Positions 34,383-35,118 of a stretch of 64,000 nucleotides of DNA are shown here, in pieces. The stretch is from Thozetella sp. PMI_491. Taxonomy: Eukaryota > Ascomycota > Sordariomycetes > Chaetosphaeriales > Chaetosphaeriaceae. Under the pieces are notes generated by a model. The model was not told the DNA's origin. It was given only the letters and a program-made list of their open reading frames with translations, and ran no database searches. The first letter of the stretch is position 1; each line of letters opens with the position of its first letter. The stretch spans positions 496,001 through 560,000 of the forward strand of contig MU270043.1 in assembly GCA_021432635.1 (NCBI GenBank), given 5' to 3'. Made by a program: the position numbers and the translations under genes.

Positions 34383-35118
34383 TTACTTGAGCTTCTTCTT
34401 GGGGCGGAGCTGGTTGGTGTGTCCGCACTTTCGCTTGCGGCAGTTGGTGGCACGGGGGGGGAGGCGAGCCTAAAGGGGTCCGGGTCAGTCTCCTTACGGT
34501 GGCCTAGCTCGCCCAAGAGATCACGGAGGAATGCGTACGTAGCACTTGCGGCAGATCATCTTGTCGCAGTTGTACTTGCTGGCAAGCACCTTGAGCGAGG
34601 GCTCAATGACACCGCCACGCAGACGGAGGACAAGGTGGAGGGTCGACTCCTGTAATGCTGTCAGTAAACCTTGCCCTTCGAAATACCCCTTTCCTCCCGA
34701 GGTCTCTTGACGTCTGATTTTCCGCGTTTCCGCAAGAAAACCTCCTATTATTTCCATTCTCCTGGACTGCCACTGACCTTCTGGATGTTGTAGTCCGAGA
34801 GAGTGCGGCCGTCCTCGAGCTGCTTGCCGGCGAAGATGAGACGCTGCTGGTCAGGGGGAATTCCCTCCTTGTCCTGGATCTTGCTCTTCACATTGTCGAT
34901 CGTGTCCGAAGACTCGACCTCCAAGGTGATGGTCTTTCCCGTGAGGGTCTTCACGAAGCTAGAGAGTCGTCGTCAGTCACCGATCGATCCGTCGACTGGA
35001 CTTTCGCAGGGTCGCAGCGAGAGTTGGAGCACCTACATCTGCACTAAAGAAGGCAGGGACGTCAGCTTCTCGATCCAACAATCATCGCAGGCATACCATC
35101 GGGGTAGGAAGACTTACT
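34383..35118 (-). CDS. Ubiquitin-60S ribosomal protein L40 fusion
   Basis: complement(join(34383..34469,34539..34649,34778..34958,35037..35043,35118)), exactly 128 residues: ubiquitin 76 plus L40 (eL40) 52. It supplies ubiquitin and a ribosomal large-subunit protein after cleavage behind the GG. The start codon is split: A at 35118, a 74-nt intron (GTAAGT...GCTGAC...CTTTAG), then the 7-nt exon TGCAGAT (35043-35037), a 78-nt intron (GTAGGT...CTGAC...CTCTAG), then C TTC GTG AAG, giving [20 protein letters not shown]. No ATG lies in frame near GTGCAGAT, so this is the only way to make the canonical Met-Gln-Ile start. Intron 3 (128 nt) follows DYNIQK; intron 4 (69 nt) joins KCY to [15 protein letters not shown]. 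Zinc-binding Cys residues of L40 ([21 protein letters not shown]) are intact. Confidence 0.95.

Follow-up and report, generated by a model that had tools for sequence, protein, structure and literature searches.

How does a ubiquitin gene begin when its start codon appears to be cut by an intron? The question is raised by the window (the whole stretch of Thozetella sp. PMI_491 DNA analysed here, 64,000 nucleotides in length), where positions 35118-34383 of the minus strand encode a ubiquitin-eL40 fusion whose product, once introns 1-4 are removed, is exactly 128 amino acids long. An earlier note on this DNA, made from the letters alone, had named the gene as ubiquitin-L40 with a protein of 128 residues, and domain matches bear out that identification: residues 3-74 of the product match PF00240 (E 2e-32), residues 78-127 match PF01020 (L40e; E 1.4e-31), and the ubiquitin part ends in ...RLRGG (Gly-Gly) immediately before the L40e part. 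The product also aligns over residues 1-128 with solved eL40 fusion chains. The locus is an ordinary ubiquitin-eL40 fusion gene.

No other L40e locus was found in the 72.3-Mb genome (157 contigs), and hence no better copy of L40 elsewhere. The genome also encodes ubiquitin-S27a and polyubiquitin, each with an uninterrupted ATGCAGATCTTC; in both of these genes the ATG is intact, MQIF is encoded and the Gln2 codon is CAG. A short ubiquitin-like stretch with an internal TAA, located elsewhere in the genome (C51:102373-102468), may be a fragment, or else a read-through intron.

The upstream neighbour in the window (37439-36155, minus strand) consists of frames with the N- and C-terminal cyclin domains of Rrn7/TAF1B, an RNA polymerase I factor; these are followed by an open frame (36171-35644) with no Pfam match, which may be the last exon of that neighbour and which ends about 530 nt ahead of the L40 start. 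Downstream (33680-32700, minus strand) lie two adjoining frames matching the Yip1 domain, one just above the curated cut-off and one below it. A rhodanese-domain open frame is found on the plus strand (32042-32365).

The predicted exon-intron structure of the ubiquitin-eL40 gene, in the order of transcription, is as follows.

35118..35118, minus strand: first coding base, the A of the start codon, which is the last base of the first exon
35044..35117, minus strand: intron 1, 74 nt, phase 1 inside the start codon; GTAAGT donor, CTGAC branch motif, TTTAG acceptor
35037..35043, minus strand: 7-nt exon TGCAGAT, comprising TG of Met1, Gln2 and the first two bases of Ile3
35039..35040, minus strand: competing AG acceptor (TGCAG), 5 nt past the intron 1 acceptor of the model
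34959..35036, minus strand: intron 2, 78 nt, phase 2 in codon 3; weak GTAGGT donor, CTGAC branch motif, CTCTAG acceptor
34778..34958, minus strand: third coding exon, 181 nt, from the last base of Ile3 to Lys63
34650..34777, minus strand: intron 3, 128 nt, phase 0
34539..34649, minus strand: fourth coding exon, 111 nt, the end of ubiquitin and the start of eL40
34470..34538, minus strand: intron 4, 69 nt, phase 0
34383..34469, minus strand: last coding exon, 84 coding nt plus the stop codon

After intron 2, coding resumes at 34958 with CTTCGTGAAG (C TTC GTG), and the start context in the form from which introns 1 and 2 have been removed is GTCAAGATGC. The 7-nt exon sits between two GT-AG introns and falls within the length definition of a microexon, an exon usually of 36 bp or less (as quoted in PMC11121469).

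Three analyses bear on whether this arrangement is real. A purpose-written spliced aligner, supplied with the protein, 1.7 kb of DNA and general splice-site preferences, returned identical boundaries (A / 74-nt intron / TGCAGAT / 78-nt intron / C TTC). Enumeration of every exact MQIF start within 642 nt upstream, allowing no more than two GT-AG introns, each 40-600 nt long, gave 12 solutions. Every one of them has the 7-nt exon, intron 2 and an ATG split as A|TG, and the only variation is in the donor of intron 1, for which 35117 is far the best (9.1 bits versus 3.8 for the next). Finally, chance was tested by dinucleotide-shuffling the 500 nt upstream 1,500 times: no shuffle matched the real score of 151.9 (the top one reached 144.0), and MQIFVK was assembled as the best model in four shuffles. 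Run with 200 shuffles, a test of this kind failed to support the starts modelled for two other genes of the genome, RPS3 and RPS23, so it is able to say no. The split ATG and 7-nt exon described in the earlier note are thus confirmed at the level of sequence modelling: the start codon is predicted to be cut A|TG by intron 1, with the 7-nt exon following.

The two dropped genes show how such a model can fail. The first RPS3 model contained exons of 2, 7 and 5 nt and an AT|G split, and was treated as an aligner artefact; limiting the search to 500 nt upstream produced a different model with the ATG intact, whose score was reached by 28 of 200 shuffles. The RPS23 model had a 7-nt first exon with a score reached by 47 of 200 shuffles, and the gene was set aside.

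Comparison with other gene models of the same genome places the L40 structure in context. Thirty-three models were built (23 + 10), and 31 remained after removal of RPS3 and RPS23. In this small sample of conserved genes, found with hand-typed probes, none of the 31 usable models splits its ATG (the dropped RPS3 model did), and in 12 of the 31 the first coding exon is no longer than 12 nt. These are CAM, RPL11 and RPS27 (3 nt each), RPL37 (4 nt), EF1A (5 nt), RPL39 (6 nt), ACT (7 nt), RPS18 and YPT1 (11 nt each), and RPL8 and both beta-tubulins (12 nt each). Among the kept models, shuffles covered RPL11, RPS27, CAM, RPL37, RPL39 and YPT1, together with an internal exon of RPS18. The starts in which an exon ends directly after the ATG are moderately secure (score reached by 17, 11 and 8 of 200 shuffles for RPL11, RPS27 and CAM, respectively); for RPL37, RPL39 and YPT1, no shuffle of 200 reached the score. 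Parts of some models are doubtful, namely the 600-nt first intron of RPS16 and the 1-nt last exons of RPL8 and RPL23.

A close counterpart in the genome is RPS18 (L100, locus 1194-1203), which has a 10-nt internal coding exon, AGAAAGTTGT, between introns of 53 and 302 nt, with a score reached by none of 400 shuffles. Like the L40 gene, it is a ribosomal protein gene with a tiny internal coding exon close to its 5′ end; unlike that of the L40 gene, its start codon is intact in the model. Other short internal exons were modelled in EF1A (14 nt) and CAM (16 nt). The L40 structure looks like the extreme of a general short-exon habit in this genome.

Splice-site quality was judged against reference introns from conserved genes of the same genome; 78 were found and 74 used, leaving out three doubtful 3′-terminal introns and one with a GC donor. 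Relative to these 74, which include some introns from two dropped or doubtful models and were picked by an aligner that already favours consensus sites, the donor and acceptor of intron 1 lie at the 49th and 9th percentiles, respectively, and those of intron 2 at the 9th and 32nd. The description of both donors as strong in the earlier note consequently holds for intron 1 and fails for the GTAGGT of intron 2; the CTGAC branch motifs and TAG acceptors that it reported are present in both introns, with the branch A 19 nt (intron 1) and 15 nt (intron 2) from the intron end, which are usual distances. We counted the weak acceptor of intron 1 and the weak donor of intron 2 against the split-start model. 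The donor of intron 3 is also at the 9th percentile, and the two sites of intron 4 rank at the 18th and the 20th; sites of modest quality are thus usual in this gene and not special to its start region. Also counted against the model was the TGCAG acceptor ending at 35039, which outscores the modelled TTTAG at 35044 (5.19 versus 3.61 bits); as read from the sequence, joining the 35117 donor to this acceptor would lose the start codon.

Translation of all isoforms separates the contributions of the two introns. Removal of both gives the 128-aa product. Retention of intron 1 leaves the RNA with no ubiquitin start and exposes three intronic ATGs (35099, 35094, and 35085), which open frames of 5, 10, and 7 codons. 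Removal of intron 1 alone creates ATG CAG; with intron 2 kept, this reads ATG CAG ATG TAG and stops after three codons. Skipping of the 7-nt exon abolishes the ubiquitin start. In all of the failed forms, the sole frame of any length has 35 codons and begins at an internal Met in the L40 part, and if the transcript starts at or above 35230, the leader also holds an ATG with a 5-codon frame. Intron 1 alone therefore decides whether a start codon exists, and intron 2 decides whether the frame continues. The earlier statement that two splicing events precede any start codon must accordingly be amended, since removal of intron 1 suffices to make the ATG and that of intron 2 is needed only past codon 3. 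It follows from the sequence that production of full-length ubiquitin-L40 would require both events; we infer at most that splicing might also "gate" translation in a regulatory sense.

The explanation that we consider very probable is that the split start is real and its introns are removed constitutively. A short 5′-proximal spliceosomal intron would cut the start codon after its first base (A|TG), another short one would lie eight coding bases in, and the 7-nt exon would remain between them. Intron definition is the usual mode for short fungal introns, and both introns are most likely taken out constitutively in this way, probably one after the other because just 7 nt separate the acceptor of intron 1 from the donor of intron 2. 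The split start would then act as a passive fail-safe that keeps unspliced RNA silent for ubiquitin: RNA retaining intron 1 would offer three short intronic frames in place of a ubiquitin start, RNA retaining intron 2 would stop after three codons, and RNA from which the exon had been skipped would have no ubiquitin start.

It is improbable, though less so than the other alternatives, that the same structure serves as a regulated switch, in which the amount of ubiquitin-eL40 is set by the choice of acceptor (TAG at 35044 or CAG at 35039), by leaving out the 7-nt exon, or by keeping intron 1. A switch could work in this manner because every alternative destroys the start codon, as exon skipping and intron 1 retention each do by leaving the ubiquitin start absent. 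The tandem acceptors (TTTAG and, 5 nt farther downstream, TGCAG with the higher score) and the weak donor of intron 2 agree with it, and a glucose-dependent microexon is on record in Trichoderma Xlr2 (in the portion of PMC11121469 concerned with that gene). Weak sites are found in intron 3 as well, however, and the Gln2 codon is CAG also in the two intact ubiquitin genes, so the downstream acceptor may be incidental. If the switch were real, it would make or destroy the gene's only ubiquitin start codon and so tune the supply of ubiquitin-eL40.

Two readings that retain a spliced start and differ in its details appear still less probable. In one, translation begins at the intact ATG at 35099-35097; a GTATGC donor at 35096 and the TGCAG acceptor to 35039 would define a 2-nt exon, AT, followed by intron 2, giving MIFVK with no Gln2. 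The donor (7.6 bits) and acceptor (5.2 bits) are both fair, and we counted these reasonable scores against the split-start model. The reading needs a 2-nt exon, however, and loses Gln2 and one residue of length, whereas MQIF is encoded by both the ubiquitin-S27a and the polyubiquitin gene, and the modelled product of 128 aa aligns from its first residue to its last with the solved fusion chains; it was scored and set aside for the loss of Gln2. In the other, which we rate about as unlikely, the A|TG start and its 7-nt exon stay as modelled and the intron 1 donor lies elsewhere upstream (for example, at 35440, giving an intron of 397 nt), with a different leader exon. Eleven further donors do give an identical coding solution, but at 9.1 bits the 35117 donor stands well apart from the next best at 3.8. 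Least credible is an artefact, with the true first exon farther upstream carrying an intact ATG, or an assembly error, and the 7-nt exon arising by chance: the aligner does produce false tiny exons where a protein end is not conserved, as in the RPS3 model, but the ubiquitin N-terminus is exact whereas that of RPS3 is not, none of the 1,500 shuffles reached the real score, and the two ATGCAR sites on the minus strand within 6 kb upstream (38880 and 38041, 3.9 and 3.1 kb away) both lie beyond the Rrn7-domain frames.

Start codons cut by introns have been recorded in another fungus, so the split-start model of the L40 gene provides a new example of a phenomenon that is not itself new. In Yarrowia lipolytica, 47 genes have a first coding exon consisting of the single A of the Met codon, in a passage of the source that does not give the share backed by cDNA (PMC2911113). 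The likeness to the L40 gene is close, with the lone A of the Met codon as first coding exon in an ascomycete, but Yarrowia is a distant yeast, and that passage is silent on ubiquitin and on any tiny exon following the split (PMC2911113). A 2026 RNA-seq study of the same yeast describes, in the section concerned, 42 introns whose 5′ splice site directly follows the A, T or G of the start codon; these include after-G cases, in which the ATG is whole, and the section gives no breakdown among the three (PMC13309789). The words "microexon" and "ubiquitin" occur nowhere in the text of that paper (PMC13309789).

Tiny exons and split starts are also known from other settings. Trichoderma virens Xlr2 contains a switch-like microexon of 20 nt with glucose-dependent inclusion, which, as the relevant part of the report describes it, resembles the L40 exon in being a tiny coding exon of a filamentous ascomycete; it is absent from the annotated gene model, and it differs from the L40 exon in its length, in belonging to a transcription factor and in lying away from the start codon (PMC11121469). 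An engineered split AUG has been used in a ribozyme reporter, according to the portion of the report that covers it (PMC12363958).

Among the matches listed from the open-licence literature, no title or abstract opening described a split start codon in a ubiquitin-L40 gene. Outside the genome of this fungus, tblastn of ubiquitin loci found no L40 extension (9 loci in viral_contigs; 80 of 368 in genome_contigs), and the exact pattern of the 7-nt-exon architecture had no match in viral_contigs; within the genome the pattern has one match, the window gene. The word "rare" in the earlier note is apt for this genome, with the ATG split in none of the other 31 usable models, but the class is recorded in dozens of Yarrowia genes. 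At sequence level the L40 gene is a well-supported example of a class already documented, and what is uncommon is the 7-nt exon that adjoins its split start.

The two introns may also differ in age. Saccharomyces cerevisiae RPL40A and RPL40B each have one intron after 8 coding nt, an intact ATG, and no 7-nt internal exon. We take the position of that intron to be the same as that of intron 2 in the window gene, in which case intron 2 would be old and intron 1 an addition to it.

Gene finders that require an uncut ATG or a minimum exon length would be expected to misannotate this gene, so the ubiquitin-eL40 gene is a good test case for annotation. It is also a naturally occurring case in which to study how the spliceosome of a fungus copes with an exon of 7 nt, and whether RNA that lacks a start codon is kept off ribosomes.
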